A stretch of 13,180 nucleotides of DNA from an uncultured Collinsella sp. (lineage in GTDB: Bacteria > Actinomycetota > Coriobacteriia > Coriobacteriales > Coriobacteriaceae), in contig CAJJZO010000031.1 in the NCBI GenBank assembly GCA_905197585.1, positions 1 through 13,180 of the forward strand. Direction: 5' to 3'. Position 1 is the first letter of the stretch. Each line of letters starts with the position of its first letter. Positions 1,619-9,627 of the stretch are shown here, in pieces. Below the pieces are notes generated by a model that saw only the letters and a list, made by a program, of their open reading frames with translations, was not told where the DNA came from and searched no databases. The translations under genes and the position numbers were made by a program.

Positions 1619-3463
1619 CTAACCCATGACCGACATGGTGAGCAGCACCGCAGCGGCGCAGTACGCTATGCACGAGATCATGACGGCAATAACGTTCATG
1701 GCGGTGCCCGACGTGTTGAGGTCATGCTCGTCACGCCAGAACAGCACCATCAGGTAAATCACGGCGCTCATGTTGCCAACCAGGCAAATGATGGCAGCGA
1801 TATTAAAGCAGCCGGTAAAGAGCTGCTCCTCAAACATGGGCGCATCGGGAAACGCGGCGGTGCGCACCAGCTGGGCGCACAGATAGGTCACGAGTGACAG
1901 AATCAGGCCCATGCCCGTGCTCTGGAAGAAAAACCCCAGATACGGCTTGGGCTCGTCGTCGTGACCGTCATACTCCAGGAAGTAGTTCTTGACGAACGAC
2001 ACCATGCGCGAGGCTGCCAGCAGCACGAGCGGCATGGCGCACATGGGGAACACCACCAGATGCGCGGAGCCGAGCGCCGTTCCCAGCACGGTCGCCATGA
2101 TGCACGACGCGATGCCCCACACGACTACCCAGTACTGGCGATGCACGAACCAGCTGAGCACGTTCGTCGAGTCGTCCGACGCACTATCGCCCGAGCCGAC
2201 ACCGGCGATCTGCAGGTCCTCCTGATGCTCCTCGGCGATAACGTCCATGGCGTCGTCGAAGGTTACGATACCCAGGATATGACGGTTCTCGTCGCAAACG
2301 GGGATGGCAACCAGGTCGTACTTGGTCATCTCGTCCGTCACGTCTTCCTGGTCCTCGTCGGGTGACACGTAGACCAGATCGCGATAGGCGAGCTGGCCCA
2401 GCGTGGCGTCGCGGTCGGCCACGATCAGCGTGCGCAGCGAAAGCACGCCCGTCAGCATGCCGCTCGGGTCCTCGGTATAGACGTAATAGACGCTCTCAAA
2501 GTCCTCGTCGAGCTTGCGAATCGCCTCGATGGCGTCGCCGACCGTCGCCGTGGCGGGCAGCGAGACAAACTCCGAGGTCATGATGCGGCCGGCGGTGTTG
2601 TCCTCGTAGCCCAGCAGATTACGAATCGCCTTCTCCTCCTTGACGCCCATCAGGCGCAGGAGCTTCTCGGCCTTCTCATAATCGAGTTCGTCGATCAGGT
2701 CGGCAGCGTCGTCCGGGTCCATCATGGCCAGCATCGACGATGCGTCCGTGTCGGACAGGCCCTCGAGCATCTCGGTCATAAGCTCATCGTCATCGAACTC
2801 CGAGATGGCCTCGGCGGCCTGGGCAGTATCGAGCTGCGCAAACACCTGCGCACGCAGGCGCGGGTCGAGCTGCTCGATAATGTCGGCGATGTCGGCAGGG
2901 TGCAGCTCGCCGAGCGTCTTGTGCGACACCGAGAGTTGAATGTTCTTGGTCGAGCGGTCGAGCAGGTCCATGTAGGACCAAGCGATGATGTCCTCACTGA
3001 GCGGCTTGCCCAGGGGCTTCATAAAGCCTTCGACGATATGCTCGAGCGCGGGGCTGATGGCGCGTAGCAGACCGCGGGCACCGACCTCGGCGCCCAGCAG
3101 GCGCAGCTGGTTTTCGCCCGACATGGAAAACTTGATGTCGTTTACGCGCACGACCTTCATGCCCTGCGTGTCGACAATCTGCTTGTTGAGCACGTCGCGG
3201 GCAAGCAAGAGTTCGGTCGGCTGCAGGTACGAAAAACGGATTTCGGTGGCCGACGTCTTAAGGTGTACACCCGTCTCGTCGATACGGTCGACCCATTTGC
3301 GCCAGCTGATCATAAACGGCGTCTTGCCGGGACCGCGGAACGCGAGCGACGTCACGTGTGGAAAAACTTCGCCGGTAGCAATACCAAAATCGTTGACCAC
3401 GCCGAGCTTTTCGCCATCGACGTCCAAGACCGGCAATTTGAGCATCTCACTCAGATAATTCAA
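1619..3463 (-). CDS. PRC-barrel / MgtE_N / CBS protein with divergent five-helix membrane domain
   Basis: Multidomain protein of about 610 residues. Residues 1-165 look like two PRC-barrel-type segments (LPVLDVDGEKLG and a second copy beginning near RDVLNKQIVDTQG). Residues about 180-290 match the MgtE N-terminal helical domain (HPADIADIIEQLDP, DPDDAADLIDEL). Residues about 290-420 form a CBS pair. Residues about 442-612 form five hydrophobic helices. Domain order equals MgtE Mg2+ channels except for the added PRC part. However, the membrane part lacks the GGNAG motif and the conserved pore Asp of the last helix, so channel function is uncertain. It could instead be a Mg2+-sensing partner of the co-transcribed NRAMP-like carrier. 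Start is ambiguous. The TTG at 3463 has GGGGAG 5 nt upstream. The ATG at 3445 is two nucleotides past the stop of a short upstream ORF and would give 608 residues. Confidence 0.85.
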   Translation of the reverse strand: MNYLSEMLKLPVLDVDGEKLGVVNDFGIATGEVFPHVTSLAFRGPGKTPFMISWRKWVDRIDETGVHLKTSATEIRFSYLQPTELLLARDVLNKQIVDTQGMKVVRVNDIKFSMSGENQLRLLGAEVGARGLLRAISPALEHIVEGFMKPLGKPLSEDIIAWSYMDLLDRSTKNIQLSVSHKTLGELHPADIADIIEQLDPRLRAQVFAQLDTAQAAEAISEFDDDELMTEMLEGLSDTDASSMLAMMDPDDAADLIDELDYEKAEKLLRLMGVKEEKAIRNLLGYEDNTAGRIMTSEFVSLPATATVGDAIEAIRKLDEDFESVYYVYTEDPSGMLTGVLSLRTLIVADRDATLGQLAYRDLVYVSPDEDQEDVTDEMTKYDLVAIPVCDENRHILGIVTFDDAMDVIAEEHQEDLQIAGVGSGDSASDDSTNVLSWFVHRQYWVVVWGIASCIMATVLGTALGSAHLVVFPMCAMPLVLLAASRMVSFVKNYFLEYDGHDDEPKPYLGFFFQSTGMGLILSLVTYLCAQLVRTAAFPDAPMFEEQLFTGCFNIAAIICLVGNMSAVIYLMVLFWRDEHDLNTSGTAMNVIAVMISCIAYCAAAVLLTMSVMG

Positions 3464-3479
3464 TGGTGCTCCCCATCAT
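3447..3479 (-). CDS. possible ten-codon leader ORF overlapping the MgtE-like start
   Basis: A strong Shine-Dalgarno (GGAGG, then AATA) precedes tandem ATG codons at 3479 and 3476. They open a frame reading MMGSTIELSE that stops with TGA at 3449-3447. This frame overlaps the TTG start of the MgtE-like gene in another phase. After the TGA comes one base, then an in-frame ATG of the large gene (TGAGATG), an arrangement typical of termination-reinitiation coupling. It may be a regulatory leader peptide. It could also mark a one-base error or frameshift at the true start of the large gene. Confidence 0.35.
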   Translation of the reverse strand: MMGSTIELSE

Positions 3480-3667
3480 TATTCCTCCGAACGCGGCCAC
3501 GCGTGCGGCGTCCGGGGGCTTCTGGATATGTATACGCATGCGCGGGCGGCACGCCGCTCGACGCTTACACCCCGTGCATGCGCAAAAAGCACCTGCATGG
3601 GGTCATCGACTGTATGGTCGAGGTTTGGATTTCACCTGTAACCTTTCTCTTGACCCTCATTAACCGC
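3480..3667 (-). ncRNA. candidate structured 5' leader RNA of the MgtE/NRAMP operon
   Basis: Between the promoter and the first start lie about 190 nt with nested complementarity. P1 pairs 3651-3656 with 3600-3605 (GGGTCA/TGACCC). Inside it sit two hairpins: 3640-3644 with 3621-3625 (AACCT/AGGTT) and 3617-3621 with 3606-3610 (TCGAC/GTCGA). Together they make a three-way junction. The 3' side of P1 also belongs to a 10-bp hairpin, 3594-3603 with 3569-3578, so P1 and that hairpin exclude each other, as in riboswitches and attenuators. A third stem, 3508-3514 with 3488-3494, abuts the ribosome-binding site. I could not match it to the M-box or another known class by eye. The pairings are read from the sequence; the switching role is inferred. 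Confidence 0.45.
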
Positions 3668-3671
3668 AGTA

Positions 3672-3680
3672 ACTATAGCA
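3672..3680 (-). promoter_or_regulatory. extended -10 promoter for the MgtE/NRAMP operon
   Basis: The minus strand reads TGCTATAGT: the extended -10 element TGn followed by a hexamer with five of six matches to TATAAT. There is no good -35, as expected for extended -10 promoters. Predicted transcription start is near 3665, just before the structured leader. Confidence 0.55.
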
Positions 3681-3758
3681 TCAGCATCGCCCTGCGGCAT
3701 CGAATTTATGCGCTGCACATTGCAGGCATACCAAACGCTGACGCATCCGTGACATAGC

Positions 3759-3790
3759 CATTGGGGACGTTCTTAAACGACTACCCAATG
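3759..3790. repeat. REP-like palindromic unit (solitary copy)
   Basis: CATTGGG (3759-3765) and CCCAATG (3784-3790) bracket GGGGACGTTCTTAAACGACT. The unit closely matches the repeats at 12180-12390 (core GGGGACAGACTTAAATGA). It abuts the stop codon of the deacetylase-like gene and may form its 3' hairpin. Confidence 0.75.
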
Positions 3791-3791
3791 A

Positions 3792-5198
3792 CTACTCTGT
3801 GGTGTCGTCGTCCTCGGCAAGTTGGGGGAACACGGCGTTTTTGGGCATGGCGGCCTTCGTCAGCGAGGTGAGCTTTTTGCTCAGCGATGTATCCGTCTTG
3901 ACCAGATCGCTCAATGTCACGATTTTGTAGCCGTCGGCAATAAGCCCGTCGATAATCTGCGGCAGCGCCTCGAGCGTCTGCTCGGCGCATTCATCGTTAT
4001 CGGTCAGCAACACAATGTTGCCCGGCGTCACCGAATCGAGCACCGTCGAGACCTGCTCGTCGGCACCGTTGAGCAGCCAGTCGCCCGAATCGATATTCCA
4101 CGAGACCACGGCAGACACCAGGTCCATCGCATCAATCCAGTTTTGCTCGTCAAAGGCTGCGTAGGGAGCACGCAAAAGCATCGTCGACGTTCCGGTCGCG
4201 GACTTGATCGCCTCGGTGCCCTTCGAAACCTGCTCGCGCACCGCATCGCGGTCCTGGCCCTTGAGCGATTCGTCGCTGTAACTGTTGGAGCCGACCTCGC
4301 AGCCGGCATCGACAATCGCCTTGGCCGTGGCGGGCGAGGCCTCGGCCGCATCACCCGACAGGAAGAACGTCGCGGTGACGCCCTTTTCCTTAAGCACCCG
4401 CAAGATCTGCTTGGTCGCTCCGCTCGGACCCTCATCAAACGTCAGCGCAACGTACTTTTCGTTGCCCTTGGGTGCCACGCTCGCGCACTCGACCACGCAA
4501 TCGGTGGCGGGCACGACCTCGCCGCGGTCCTGCGTCTTGCCCGATTGCTCGCCGACCCACACCTCGGAGCGGCCCTGGATACCCCACGTCTTGACGTACT
4601 CGATGGCACCCGTGCCCTCGACCTTGAGCTTGGGCTCGATAACCGTCGCCTGGACCTCGTGCTTCTCATACGTGTCACGGCCGTCCTTGACCGTCACCTT
4701 CTCGCCACCCGTAAGCTCGCGGCTTTTCCACTTGCCCTGTTTTATGCGCTTGCCGTCCACCTTTACCGACAGCTTTTCGCCGCCATGGCGGGTCAGCACG
4801 CTGTCGTCAACGGCCAGCAGATCACCAGCGTCGTAGGTATCGGTCAGCTCCTGGTCGTCGATGAGATTTTGCAGCGTAGAGCCGACGCGCACTGCAGTCT
4901 CCTGGCCGTTGAGGACGACATCCACGCTGCGGTTGACGTAGCCCACAACGGCGGCGACAAACAGCACGAGCGCGCAGCCCACGGCGATGAGCGCATAGGG
5001 CAGGCGAGACGGACGACGGGGCGTGCGGCCGTTGCCGATGCGAGCGCTGCGGTCGCTAAAGCCGCGGCTATGGTTGAGATACATCGCGCCGGGCTTACGG
5101 TGACGCTTGCGCTGACCGCTGGGCAGCTGCCCCAGGTCGCGGCGCGCCGTCGGACGCGCACCCGAGCGCCCGTTTAAGTTAGATCCGTTTTGGCGCAT
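3792..5198 (-). CDS. membrane-anchored NodB-fold polysaccharide deacetylase-like protein, metal site degenerate
   Basis: 468 residues. A basic, proline/arginine-rich cytoplasmic segment (1-66) precedes one transmembrane helix (67-88). Next are extracellular repeats resembling DUF348/G5-type domains (about 91-185, VDVVLNGQETAVRVGSTLQNL), then a NodB-like domain (about 248-435). Motif 1 is TFDEG (253-257), where the family has TFDDG. Motif 2, normally HxxxH, has Asn305 and Asp309. Motif 3 is RAPY (343-346). Motif 4 is DSGDW (370-374). The motif 5 His is Thr399. The catalytic-base Asp255 and the Arg and Asp of motifs 3 and 4 remain, but the metal ligands and the acid His are gone. A cell-wall location is likely. 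It may bind glycan rather than deacetylate it, or use other chemistry. The start ATG has GGGAGGG just upstream. A hairpin 22 nt upstream separates it from the PRC-barrel gene. Confidence 0.85.
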   Translation of the reverse strand: MRQNGSNLNGRSGARPTARRDLGQLPSGQRKRHRKPGAMYLNHSRGFSDRSARIGNGRTPRRPSRLPYALIAVGCALVLFVAAVVGYVNRSVDVVLNGQETAVRVGSTLQNLIDDQELTDTYDAGDLLAVDDSVLTRHGGEKLSVKVDGKRIKQGKWKSRELTGGEKVTVKDGRDTYEKHEVQATVIEPKLKVEGTGAIEYVKTWGIQGRSEVWVGEQSGKTQDRGEVVPATDCVVECASVAPKGNEKYVALTFDEGPSGATKQILRVLKEKGVTATFFLSGDAAEASPATAKAIVDAGCEVGSNSYSDESLKGQDRDAVREQVSKGTEAIKSATGTSTMLLRAPYAAFDEQNWIDAMDLVSAVVSWNIDSGDWLLNGADEQVSTVLDSVTPGNIVLLTDNDECAEQTLEALPQIIDGLIADGYKIVTLSDLVKTDTSLSKKLTSLTKAAMPKNAVFPQLAEDDDTTE

Positions 5199-7421: not shown

Positions 7422-8795
7422 CTACTCGTCGCCATCGTGCGGATCCACAGAGCCCGCACCCGACGTCGCCGGCTTCTCTGCCGAAGACTCGGAATCCTTC
7501 TTATCGGTTTCGGCCGGAGCAATCACGCGAATGAGCGAGATGCGCTGGCCACGCATCGACTGCACCTTGAACTTGTACCCCGCAACCTCAAACACCTCTC
7601 CGATGTCGGGCACCGAGTCGCAAAGCTCCAAAATCCAGCCGGCGATGGTCTCATAATCATCGCTTTCCTCGAGCGGCCAACCAAGCTCAATCGCGTCATC
7701 GCACGAAAAACGCCCATCGACGAGCCACTCGCGGCGCGAAAGGCGCGTGAGGTACTTGTTGTCGGGGTCGAACTCGTCCTCGATCTCGCCGACGATCTCC
7801 TCGACGATGTCCTCGATGGTGATGATGCCGGCCGTGCCGCCGTACTCGTCCACGACCACCACGATCTGGTCGTGCGAGGTCTGCATCTCGGACAGCAGCG
7901 GCAGGATGTCCTTGGTGTCGGGCACAAAGGTGGCGTCGCGCAAAAAGTCGGCGATGGGCTGGTCGCCCTTGCCGTCGAGCGCGGGCTGAATCAGGTCCTT
8001 GATGTGCGCGATGCCGGCGACGTTGTCGGGATCCTCGTGATAGACGGGGATGCGGCTAAAGCCGGTCTGGCGCATGGCGGACAGCACGTCAGCGACCGTC
8101 TCGTCGTCCTCGCACATGGTGGTGTCCACGCGCGGCACCATAACCTCGCGGGCAACGGTGTCGCCCAGGTCGAAGATCTCGTGGATCATGCGCTTTTCCT
8201 CGTCGAGCAGGTCGTCCTGCTCCGAGACCATGTACTTGATCTCTTCCTCCGAGACGTTTTGGCGGTCGTCGGCGCTCTTGATGCGCAGGATGCGGGCCAG
8301 GCCATCGGAGCAGGCGCCGGTCAGCCACACGAGCGGACGGGCGATCTTTTGGAAAAACGACAACGGTCCCACGACCTGCTTGGATACGCCCTCGGCGTTG
8401 GCCAGACCGATGCGCTTGGGCACAAGCTCGCCGATCACGATGGACACAAAGGCGACGGCGACGGTGATGATGACCGGCGCCAGGCCGCGCGCGATGGCGG
8501 AAAGCGGCGCGATGCCAAAGCTCATGAGCCACGTGGCAAGCGGGTCGGACAGACTCGTCGAGGCGACGGCGGACGAGGCGAAGCCCACGAGCGTGATGGC
8601 AACCTGGATGGTGGCGAGCAGCTGGTCGGAGTCGGCAGCCAGCTTAATGGCACGCTCGGCGCGCTTGTCGCCTTCCTCGGCCTCGTGCTCCAGCACGGCG
8701 CGCTTGGCCGTGGTGAGCGCCATCTCGGACATAGAGAAGTAGCCGTTGATGAGGGTCAAAACGAGGGTGGTGATAAGGGAGATGGTTATGTCCAT
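7422..8795 (-). CDS. CorC/HlyC-family (CNNM-type) membrane protein with CBS pair
   Basis: 457 residues. Residues 1 to about 180 form the DUF21/CNNM transmembrane domain (NGYFSMSEMALTTAKR, VSIVIGELVPKRIGL). Two CBS domains follow (about 205-330), with VPRVDTTMCEDDETV and DEYGGTAGIITIEDIVEEIVGEIEDE, a signature of the family. A CorC_HlyC domain (about 340-425, RLSRREWLVDGRFSCDDAIELG) and a polar tail complete it. Such proteins (CorC, MpfA, CNNM) bind Mg-ATP in the CBS pair and are associated with Mg2+ or Co2+ export and Mg2+ tolerance; older annotations say hemolysin. Length and domain order are normal, so it looks functional. The ATG at 8795 sits at the first membrane helix. GGAGG lies 15 nt upstream, which is long, but no better in-frame start exists. 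It leads an apparent two-gene unit with the cyanophycin-synthetase-N-like gene. Confidence 0.9.
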   Translation of the reverse strand: MDITISLITTLVLTLINGYFSMSEMALTTAKRAVLEHEAEEGDKRAERAIKLAADSDQLLATIQVAITLVGFASSAVASTSLSDPLATWLMSFGIAPLSAIARGLAPVIITVAVAFVSIVIGELVPKRIGLANAEGVSKQVVGPLSFFQKIARPLVWLTGACSDGLARILRIKSADDRQNVSEEEIKYMVSEQDDLLDEEKRMIHEIFDLGDTVAREVMVPRVDTTMCEDDETVADVLSAMRQTGFSRIPVYHEDPDNVAGIAHIKDLIQPALDGKGDQPIADFLRDATFVPDTKDILPLLSEMQTSHDQIVVVVDEYGGTAGIITIEDIVEEIVGEIEDEFDPDNKYLTRLSRREWLVDGRFSCDDAIELGWPLEESDDYETIAGWILELCDSVPDIGEVFEVAGYKFKVQSMRGQRISLIRVIAPAETDKKDSESSAEKPATSGAGSVDPHDGDE

Positions 8796-8908: not shown

Positions 8909-9592
8909 CTAGATTACGAAGAGGATCACCGCCATGAACTGGAAGATACTGCCGGCGAGCACCCACAAGTGAAACACACTGTGCAGGTAGCGCACGTTTT
9001 TGGCGATATAGAACGGCACGCCCGCGGTGTAGCACACGCCGCCGACGGCGAGCAGGGCAAGTGCCACGGGGTTGAGCAGCGCCACAAGTTCGGGCAGCTT
9101 AAAGACAACGAGCCAGCCCATCAGCAGGTAAACCAGGCCGCTTACCCAGTGCGGTTGACGCTCGCGCATAAAGCACTCGAGGGCGATGCCGATAATGGCG
9201 ATGGCCCATACGGCAAAGAACAGCGCAGGGCCGCCGTCGTTTGCGAGCGTGATAAGGCAAAACGGCGTATAGCTGCCCGCAATGAGCAGGTAGATGCAGC
9301 TGTGGTCGATGATGCGAAACACGCGCTTGGCGCGCGCGGGCTGAATCGCGTGGTAGAGCGTGGAGGCTAGGTATTCGAGGATAATGCTGACACCATAGAC
9401 AATCGCCGCGGCCATGTGGGCCGGGCCTCCGCCGCGCAGGGCAGCGAATACGATCAGGAGCACCAGGCCCGCGATACCCAGCAGGCAGCCGACACCATGG
9501 GTGACGGAGTTCATGATCTCCTCGCCCACCGTGTAGTGTGGAACGGCCGCGGTCTTGGGTCGCGGCTTAGAACTGTCGCTCGAATCGGACAT
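8909..9592 (-). CDS. hemolysin III / PAQR-type seven-helix membrane protein
   Basis: 227 residues from the ATG at 9592, with seven hydrophobic helices after a short polar N-terminus. Family signatures are present in order: EEIMNSVTHG (Ser and His of the first motif), STLYHA, DHSCIYLLIAGSYTP, and HSVFHLWVLAGS near the C-terminus. In this superfamily (PAQR, HlyIII, alkaline ceramidase) the conserved Ser, Asp and three His residues form a membrane-embedded metal hydrolase site, and all are visible. The bacterial role is not settled: pore-forming activity was reported for HlyIII of Bacillus cereus, and envelope or lipid functions are suggested for others. A longer form from TTG at 9610 is possible, but GGAGG (9608-9604) then falls inside it, whereas it lies upstream of ATG 9592. 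Divergent from the hydrolase gene. Confidence 0.88.
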   Translation of the reverse strand: MSDSSDSSKPRPKTAAVPHYTVGEEIMNSVTHGVGCLLGIAGLVLLIVFAALRGGGPAHMAAAIVYGVSIILEYLASTLYHAIQPARAKRVFRIIDHSCIYLLIAGSYTPFCLITLANDGGPALFFAVWAIAIIGIALECFMRERQPHWVSGLVYLLMGWLVVFKLPELVALLNPVALALLAVGGVCYTAGVPFYIAKNVRYLHSVFHLWVLAGSIFQFMAVILFVI

Positions 9593-9627
9593 GCCGGTTA
9601 CATCCTCCAACGTAAAGAGTTCTCAAC

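Follow-up and report, generated by a model that had tools for sequence, protein, structure and literature searches.

A short conserved reading frame at the core of a probable leader-peptide attenuator upstream of a magnesium import operon in Collinsella and its relatives

Introduction

The window analysed here, a 13 180 nt stretch of DNA from an uncultured Collinsella sp., carries on its minus strand a magnesium-type transport operon preceded by a leader in which two RNA structures compete for the same nucleotides. What kind of element is this leader? The initial annotation took it for a 'new or strongly diverged metal-responsive RNA', that is, for an RNA that would itself respond to the metal. 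Leader ORFs that tune Mg2+ importers are known from Enterobacteria, where mgtL, a short ORF with Pro codons, precedes a Mg2+ operon. Among the matches listed in our literature search, subscription papers aside, no title or abstract describes the element reported here. In PMC11109978 an 'mgtE motif' is given only for Thioalkalivibrio, and the main text contains no Collinsella, Eggerthella or Olsenella; in the main text of PMC8040213 Collinsella is named once, for an L7/L12 leader.

Here we show by comparison of leaders across relatives that what is conserved in the core is a small upstream ORF, predicted to encode a peptide of 6–11 residues, and most probably not a metal aptamer. We think it probable that the leader as a whole is a leader-peptide attenuator that sets translation of a MgtE_N/CBS–Nramp Mg2+ import operon.

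Results and discussion

The operon and the competing folds of its leader

The main gene of the operon (3463–1619, minus strand; TTG start, 614 aa) encodes a protein with a PRC barrel, an MgtE_N domain and two CBS domains (Pfam), and with a C-terminal part that is hydrophobic by eye. Its best PDB relatives are entries for the magnesium transporter MgtE, and it is 100% identical over 614 residues to named Collinsella records; the window is from a member of the C. aerofaciens group. An Nramp-family gene (Pfam Nramp) lies at 348–1673 on the minus strand, which are the limits of the ORF as listed, the real start possibly being further in. Among PDB entries, the encoded protein scores highest, at 497.9 bits, against EleNRMT of Eggerthella lenta (7qia); the next relative reaches 108.5. 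EleNRMT, picked from a set of 745 putative Nramp-related magnesium transporters, has been characterised as a transporter of this kind (PMC8806188, excerpt), and Nramp-related Mg2+ transporters under M-box control have been described in Clostridia and Deltaproteobacteria (PMC4072509, excerpt).

The window also holds a CNNM/CorC-type protein with CBS and CorC_HlyC domains (7425–8795, minus strand) and a HlyIII-family membrane protein (8912–9610, minus strand). CorC-type proteins are linked to Mg2+ efflux.

All elements of the leader are on the minus strand. The extended −10 box of the initial annotation, TGCTATAGT, is present at 3680–3672; among divergent family leaders a TATAGT/TATAGA-type box stands no more than 190 nt upstream of the small ORF described below in 34 of 37, a count made without a chance control. 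The helix P1, formed by GGGTCA (3656–3651) and TGACCC (3605–3600), was likewise confirmed in the sequence. Hairpin H has its arms, ACCCCATGCA (3603–3594) and TGCACGGGGT (3578–3569), where they had been placed, with the qualification that nine rather than all ten of the supposed pairs form, an internal A·C mismatch taking the place of the tenth. The 5′ arm of H overlaps the 3′ arm of P1, and because both structures use the same ACCC they are mutually exclusive, as had been proposed. Within H lies an anti-SD, GGTGCTTTTT (3584–3593), and the Shine–Dalgarno sequence (SD) of the main gene is GGGGAGCACC (3465–3474). The three-way junction that had been drawn around P1 did not survive comparison: it is not conserved, P2 retains GG/CC only, the second pair of P3 is missing in 12 of 38 sequences, and RNAalifold returns no consensus structure for the core alignment, several rows of which are misaligned at the 5′ arm of P1.

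The leader had been judged by eye not to be an M-box, and we agree. An Rfam scan of the window at gathering scores gave zero matches, M-box (RF00380) included, and a scan of 3300–3900 up to an E-value of 10 again gave no M-box, the sole match being a snoRNA family at E 1.

Occurrence of the leader core in relatives

The genome sets called family, class and phylum in what follows are those of C. provencensis (L021/G001), whose family and class we take to be Coriobacteriaceae and Coriobacteriia. The main gene is found in 60 of 65 family genomes. A nearly invariant core lies upstream of it in 37 of 38 divergent family loci and in 20 of 20 loci of the C. aerofaciens group; in the exception (L093, genome G057), where the gene shows 56% identity, the element is absent. 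Before the ORF was recognised, a covariance model (R1) was built from 38 core sequences. A new aptamer was our initial model at the time of the R1 search, and it was dropped as the main reading after the ORF had been recognised and the synonymous test below carried out.

R1 has matches in 151 of the 396 genomes of the class set and in 24 of the 396 of the phylum set, the latter all being class matches too except G636, whose match (L221) has no MgtE_N/CBS gene behind it. From the R1 matches 80 further loci were picked, near-duplicates being left out: 74 have an MgtE_N/CBS gene in the fetched stretch, one is on a contig that ends early (L179), and five are false (L213, L217, L219, L220 and L221). 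The protein has a match in 346 of 396 class genomes, and 30 distant ('deep') genomes were chosen as gene-positive and R1-negative; the Nramp gene is next in 29 of these 30 loci. Seven rows were dropped before the counts given below, namely L093 (no element), L179 (the contig stops before the gene; the peptide is present) and the five false matches.

The conserved core varies as a coding sequence

In the window the core contains the reading frame GTG AAA TCC AAA CCT CGA CCA TAC AGT CGA TGA (3635–3603), which would encode (M)KSKPRPYSR. Its SD, AGAAAGG (3642–3648), ends 6 nt before the GTG; the P1 5′ arm stands directly upstream of this SD, and the P1 3′ arm includes the stop codon. A candidate ORF of this kind occurs in 169 of 175 leaders of the same gene (G275 being counted twice in the 175, as L216 and L232), and the other six give no pattern match. 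This pattern was built from peptides already seen, so that the decisive comparison is that with shuffled and reverse-complemented leaders. For it, a strict pattern (SD-like motif, 5–12 aa, P-x-S-x(1-2)-stop, Ser codon AGT) was applied to 420 nt upstream of the gene. It is present in 26 of 30 distant leaders, whereas the reverse complements give none in 30 and 30 shuffles give on average 0.1 in 30 (maximum 1); a looser pattern finds 28 of 30, 1 of 30 and 0.9 of 30 per shuffle respectively. By eye, L237 and L242 have related but longer peptide endings, and L236 and L265 have no such ending. Such an ORF is lacking in all 20 of the more distant homologues taken from the phylum draw; the loose pattern matches two of them (LPSS and LKTPPSRET), which otherwise have nothing in common with the leader peptides.

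A first ORF scan had yielded the peptide at 130 of 137 loci, the other seven being the five false R1 matches, L078 and L216. L078 carries an AGA codon and its ORF was recovered by the wider pattern; that of L216 lay beyond the part scanned and is seen in the second copy of the same locus, L232.

We sorted the leaders under the ad hoc labels Collinsella-type, MKPRPHSR-type, KPHSK-type and deep; as a guess, the KPHSK-type leaders belong to Eggerthella and kin. Collinsella-type peptides have the general form VKxKPRP(H/Y)S(R/S), as in VKSKPRPYSR (the window), VKSKPRPHSR, VKPKPRPHSS and similar sequences, while MKPRPHSR is found in 65 of the 169 leaders and LKVRKSKPHSK, VKPHSP, VTPSSP and further types make up the rest. 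Among the deep peptides are LKVRKSKPHSK, VKPHSP, VKPHSI, VIPHSP, VRPFSQ, VRPFSR, VRPPSP, VTPSSP, VIPSSP, VSNHDHPHSK, VSGLDHPHSC and variants of these. The ending P-x-S-x(1-2)-stop is shared by 163 of 169, with Arg or Cys in place of Ser in the other six. Lengths are 6 (15 leaders), 8 (84), 9 (2), 10 (56) or 11 (12) codons; the start codon is ATG (82), GTG (77) or TTG (10), the stop codon TGA (113), TAG (41) or TAA (15), and 152 leaders have a GAGAAAGG-like SD before the ORF. The leaders thus vary by codon-sized changes of length and by exchange of start and stop codons, and the end of the peptide is kept where the RNA differs.

In three leaders (L076, L082 and L083) the ORF is one codon longer (..SSC-stop), and the insertion extends the 3′ side of P1 as well. 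The peptide of one divergent genome (L231), VKPHQPRSK, resembles a rearranged mixture of the KPHS and PRPHSR types.

We then asked how often distinct variant codons one base away from the commonest codon are synonymous, the expected fraction being 0.20–0.25; identical sequences were collapsed and, here as in the pairing tests below, kinship is ignored. In frame, the synonymous variants were 13 of 19 in the 10-codon group (P 3.8e-5), 8 of 14 in the 8-codon group (P 0.01) and 5 of 9 in the 6-codon group (P 0.02). A further, fourth group, whose 9 sequences were too few for the test, gave 2 of 4. The same test found no significant synonymous excess in frames 1 and 2. We conclude that the ORF has been selected as a coding sequence.

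Base choice is constrained too. The Arg codon of PRP is CGA in 139 of 139 cases, compared with 114 of 2566 Arg codons in the downstream genes, and the last Ser codon is AGT in 151 of 163, compared with 67 of 2824 Ser codons there (the reference being the fetched portions of the downstream genes at the 80 R1-match loci). The 12 AGC codons at the latter position belong to ..HSS and ..HSSC endings. That these rare codons are fixed implies that base choice is also under selection, be it for slow decoding, for RNA folding or for both.

P1 and the anti-SD:SD pairing covary across lineages

P1 brings the sequence 5′ of the ORF together with the region of its stop codon, and H reuses the 3′ arm of P1 and holds an anti-SD complementary to the main SD. 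When the whole window leader is folded, P1 forms and GTGCTTTT of the hairpin is paired with the main SD GGGGAGCAC (z −2.65; 4 of 200 shuffles). When the leader is cut after H it folds with H and without P1, a fold that is not unusually stable (z −1.15; 27 of 200 shuffles equally low).

Pairing in relatives was assessed by comparing the duplex energy of each leader's own arms with that of arms from other leaders, using 94 dereplicated leaders of the 169. For P1 the own mean was −10.78 kcal/mol and the foreign mean −8.50 kcal/mol, and for anti-SD:SD they were −21.37 and −17.47 kcal/mol; in both cases 0 of 5000 permutations reached the own mean. For H, taken over all lineages, they were −17.62 and −16.59 kcal/mol (1 of 5000), and two control region pairs gave 3871 and 4973 of 5000. 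Within the Collinsella-type (27), MKPRPHSR-type (48) and deep (19) subsets, the permutation counts out of 5000 were 0, 0 and 0 for P1 and 2, 0 and 2 for anti-SD:SD. The corresponding counts for H were 3052, 350 and 0, so that H is supported within the deep set only. The comparison of relatives' leaders that the initial annotation had called for therefore finds the element conserved and both P1 and anti-SD:SD covarying.

The longest P1 helix reaches 6 bp or more in 66 of the 94 leaders (uncontrolled count). In the 38-core alignment, P1 shows 14 cells with changes on both sides, compared with 5.8 after shuffling, and 2 pairs with such changes, compared with 2.0. The 5′ arm lies just before the SD of the ORF in the window and many Collinsella-type leaders, and over this SD in many others, for example as AGGTCAGC/GCTGACCT in L157 and GGACCTAC/GTAGGTCC in L241. 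Its occurrence at two places is seen in L152, L200 and L142-L218; by eye L152 has both, as if they had been swapped by duplication. A loop–loop helix, GUGA:UCAC, was weighed by eye and dropped because one of its arms hardly varies.

In summary, the leader holds an ORF with in-frame start and stop codons and an SD ahead of the main gene, substitutions of coding type in frame 0, and mutually exclusive folds linked to the ORF, one of which would mask the ribosome-binding site (RBS); H, by itself, is non-significant inside two of the lineages.

The leader ORF occurs behind an M-box or where the M-box is missing

The M-box RF00380 shares with the leader the context of Mg2+ transport genes, which is a likeness of context and not of membership. 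When all 30 distant loci were examined with cmscan, 14 proved to carry an M-box upstream of the same gene, at a distance of 205–327 nt. By eye the order in these loci is M-box, terminator-like hairpin, leader ORF and gene, the M-box thus standing upstream of the leader-ORF element. No M-box was found by cmscan in any of the 9 KPHSK-type loci, or within 300 nt upstream in ten R1-match loci. In all 9 KPHSK-type loci (L250, L253, L254, L258–L261, L263 and L264) a tRNA gene precedes the leader ORF where the M-box would stand.

Across the class, 56 of 197 genomes have an M-box, and the only one of them among the 151 R1 genomes is G103, whose R1 match is false (L217). Within the family it occurs in 1 of 65 genomes (G057), and there not before the MgtE_N/CBS gene. 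In that genome (L094) the gene is present and the leader ORF absent, and the M-box precedes a gene for an MgtA-like P-type ATPase (DKTGT motif, by eye). Among the 20 more distant homologues of the phylum draw an M-box was found in 2. The leader ORF either is stacked behind an M-box or stands where the M-box is missing. The simplest history would be an older M-box, to which the ORF was added in the class, and which was later lost in the Collinsella/MKPRPHSR and KPHSK branches.

A terminator-like hairpin before the ORF was detected in 14 of 27 Collinsella-type leaders (4 in the reversed control), 9 of 48 MKPRPHSR-type leaders (control 5) and 19 of 19 deep leaders (control 6). It might be a leftover of the M-box terminator, for which these numbers are suggestive only. 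By eye, eight leaders (L057, L065, L073, L076, L078, L083, L086 and L089) have a hairpin with a U-run directly after the promoter and before the ORF.

These observations bear on whether the RNA core could itself be a new Mg2+ riboswitch, in which P1 closes on metal binding and the resemblance to an ORF is incidental. Such an RNA would fit the strong sequence conservation, the covariation of P1 and the presence of an anti-SD platform, and the invariant wobble bases of CGA and AGT could reflect constraint on the RNA. We nevertheless regard it as highly improbable, given that the synonymous excess is found in frame only, that start and stop codons are exchanged and lengths differ by whole codons, and that the peptide ending is retained in deep lineages despite a different RNA. 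The core moreover has no consensus fold, with P3 broken in 12 of 38, and the M-box upstream already provides the operon with an Mg2+ aptamer in 14 of 30 deep loci. P1 covaries, as it should in an aptamer, but would also serve an attenuator. A metal-responsive RNA of new or diverged type is hence unsupported, the conserved core behaving as a protein-coding leader ORF; the broader proposal, of a leader that regulates a Mg2+ transport operon in cis and contains mutually exclusive pairings, is upheld.

Proposed action of the leader-peptide attenuator

In the attenuator that we favour, four regions would take part: the flank and SD of the ORF (region 1), its stop codon together with CCCC (region 2), the anti-SD carried by H (region 3) and the SD of the main gene (region 4). 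The closed state would consist of 1:2 (P1) together with 3:4 (anti-SD:SD), and in the open state 2:3 (H) would hide the anti-SD and free the main SD. The fold would be picked by the position of the ribosome on the ORF. A ribosome that is starting, or is held early, would cover region 1 and favour H (on); with no ribosome, or with one held at the stop codon and so covering region 2, P1 would be left or H blocked (off).

Equilibrium folding of 93 leaders gave a mean accessibility of the main SD of 0.281 for the free leader, 0.323 with a ribosome at the start of the ORF, 0.292 with one at its stop and 0.317 with a control stretch further 5′ blocked (P 0.03 by Wilcoxon test for start versus stop; P 0.0008 for start versus free and 0.26 for stop versus free). 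In the window, the best fold with the ORF start region blocked is not H; instead, CCCCAT pairs with ATGGGG at the main SD. Because the equilibrium effects are small, and contrary in the window, a kinetic choice made co-transcriptionally must be assumed, and the direction of the switch is a weak prediction.

Alternatively, the main output could be early termination of transcription by Rho, at a site that translation of the ORF would shield or expose, with RBS masking being secondary. By eye, more than 100 nt of leader extend beyond H in many genomes, and Rho is active in the mycobacterial M-box leader (PMC12810186, excerpt). However, anti-SD:SD covaries in all three lineages, which argues that RBS masking has been selected, and only 63–90 nt separate the leader stop from the main start in 14 of 26 deep leaders. 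We consider Rho as the main output unlikely.

The signal to which the attenuator responds is most likely Mg2+, because of the content of the operon and because an M-box precedes the same operon in relatives. The main rival to Mg2+ as signal is charged tRNA or another translation stress. The ORF might gauge charged tRNA (Pro, Arg or Ser) or the decoding of Pro, so that the importer would follow the growth state and not Mg2+ itself. Besides Ser, Pro is the most constant sense residue, the rare codons CGA and AGT are retained, and mgtP is stated to be responsive to charged tRNA-Pro (PMC8092293, excerpt). Yet His, Arg and Lys vary between lineages (VTPSSP, VRPPSP, VKPHSP), a starvation sensor would be expected to have more than one to three Pro codons, and the downstream gene is unrelated to amino acids; amino-acid or tRNA attenuation strikes us as rather doubtful.

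For a Mg2+-sensing attenuator, the most likely course is that a nascent P-x-S-x-stop end encoded in fixed rare codons slows elongation or termination and renders it responsive to cellular Mg2+ or to some other variable of translation. The ending itself suggests an effect at or near termination. More tentatively, P-x-S-x-stop might be a cis-acting termination-arrest peptide, the nascent equivalent of type II proline-rich peptides, with a Mg2+-dependent hold on the terminating ribosome; this ribosome-based sensor would in this class first have acted behind the M-box and then have replaced it, apparently in two lineages; this is a speculation to which we give some, though limited, weight.

Relation to known leader peptides

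We know of no sequence relation between the leader ORF and mgtL or mgtP. Like mgtL, mgtP of Enterobacteria is a short leader ORF with Pro codons before a Mg2+ operon (PMC8092293, excerpt). The leader ORF differs from both in its own output, which as far as can be read from the DNA would be RBS masking. The closest parallel in logic is mgtQ of the Salmonella mgtCBRU operon, likewise a very small ORF (8 aa) upstream of a gene for a Mg2+ transporter, where 1:2/3:4 is opposed to 2:3, 3:4 masks the RBS and a ribosome on region 1 favours 2:3 (PMC8092293, excerpt). In the same excerpt mgtQ needs acidic residues, which are absent from the main peptide types of the Collinsella-class leaders; Asp or Glu occurs in 4 of 169 (MKDRPHSR twice, VSGLDHPHSC and VSNHDHPHSK). 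In addition, mgtQ sits between genes whereas the leader ORF starts its operon, and transporter type and phylum differ. The M-box leader of Mycobacterium tuberculosis offers small ORFs, one of them rich in rare codons, within an actinobacterial Mg2+ leader; there the M-box controls the uORF (PMC12810186, excerpt), whereas the Collinsella-class ORF also stands without an M-box.

Apidaecin, a type II proline-rich peptide, arrests terminating ribosomes at stop codons (PMC11347161, excerpt). According to the same excerpt its C-terminal segment is rich in Pro and Arg and its His tolerates Tyr, features that recall PRP(H/Y) near the stop codon of the leader ORF, but its end with penultimate Arg and terminal Leu is absent from the leader peptide. 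The latter, with six to eleven codons, would act, if at all, on its own ribosome, and deep forms such as VKPHSP and VTPSSP share only P-x-S-x in this comparison. We treat the likeness as a lead. The fixed P-x-S-x-stop ending and the fixed rare codons together point to a specific, unexplored interaction with the ribosome.

The Collinsella-class element would thus be an apparently unrelated leader ORF of a Mg2+ importer, retained across much of a class of gut bacteria and adjoining a transporter that has a structurally solved relative. Natural experiments exist in this class, with M-box and leader ORF together or the leader ORF only, and the M-box only in two more distant homologues. Replacement of a riboswitch by a ribosome-based sensor is therefore directly testable here.

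A second small ORF in the C. aerofaciens group

In all 20 leaders of the C. aerofaciens group that were compared, a second small ORF, ATGATGGGGAGCACC..TGA (MMGSTIELSE), is present with its own SD and overlaps the TTG or GTG with which the main gene starts; it encloses the SD of other leaders. In the window it is the ATGATG..TGA frame at 3447–3479 (minus strand). The further stem of the initial annotation, CGGACGC (3514–3508) with GCGTTCG (3494–3488), is likewise present in the sequence, with 7 pairs of which one is G·U; the ribosome-binding site at which it sits is that of this second ORF (3479–3447). Because the second ORF covers the main start in this group, the main gene may there be reached by translational coupling.
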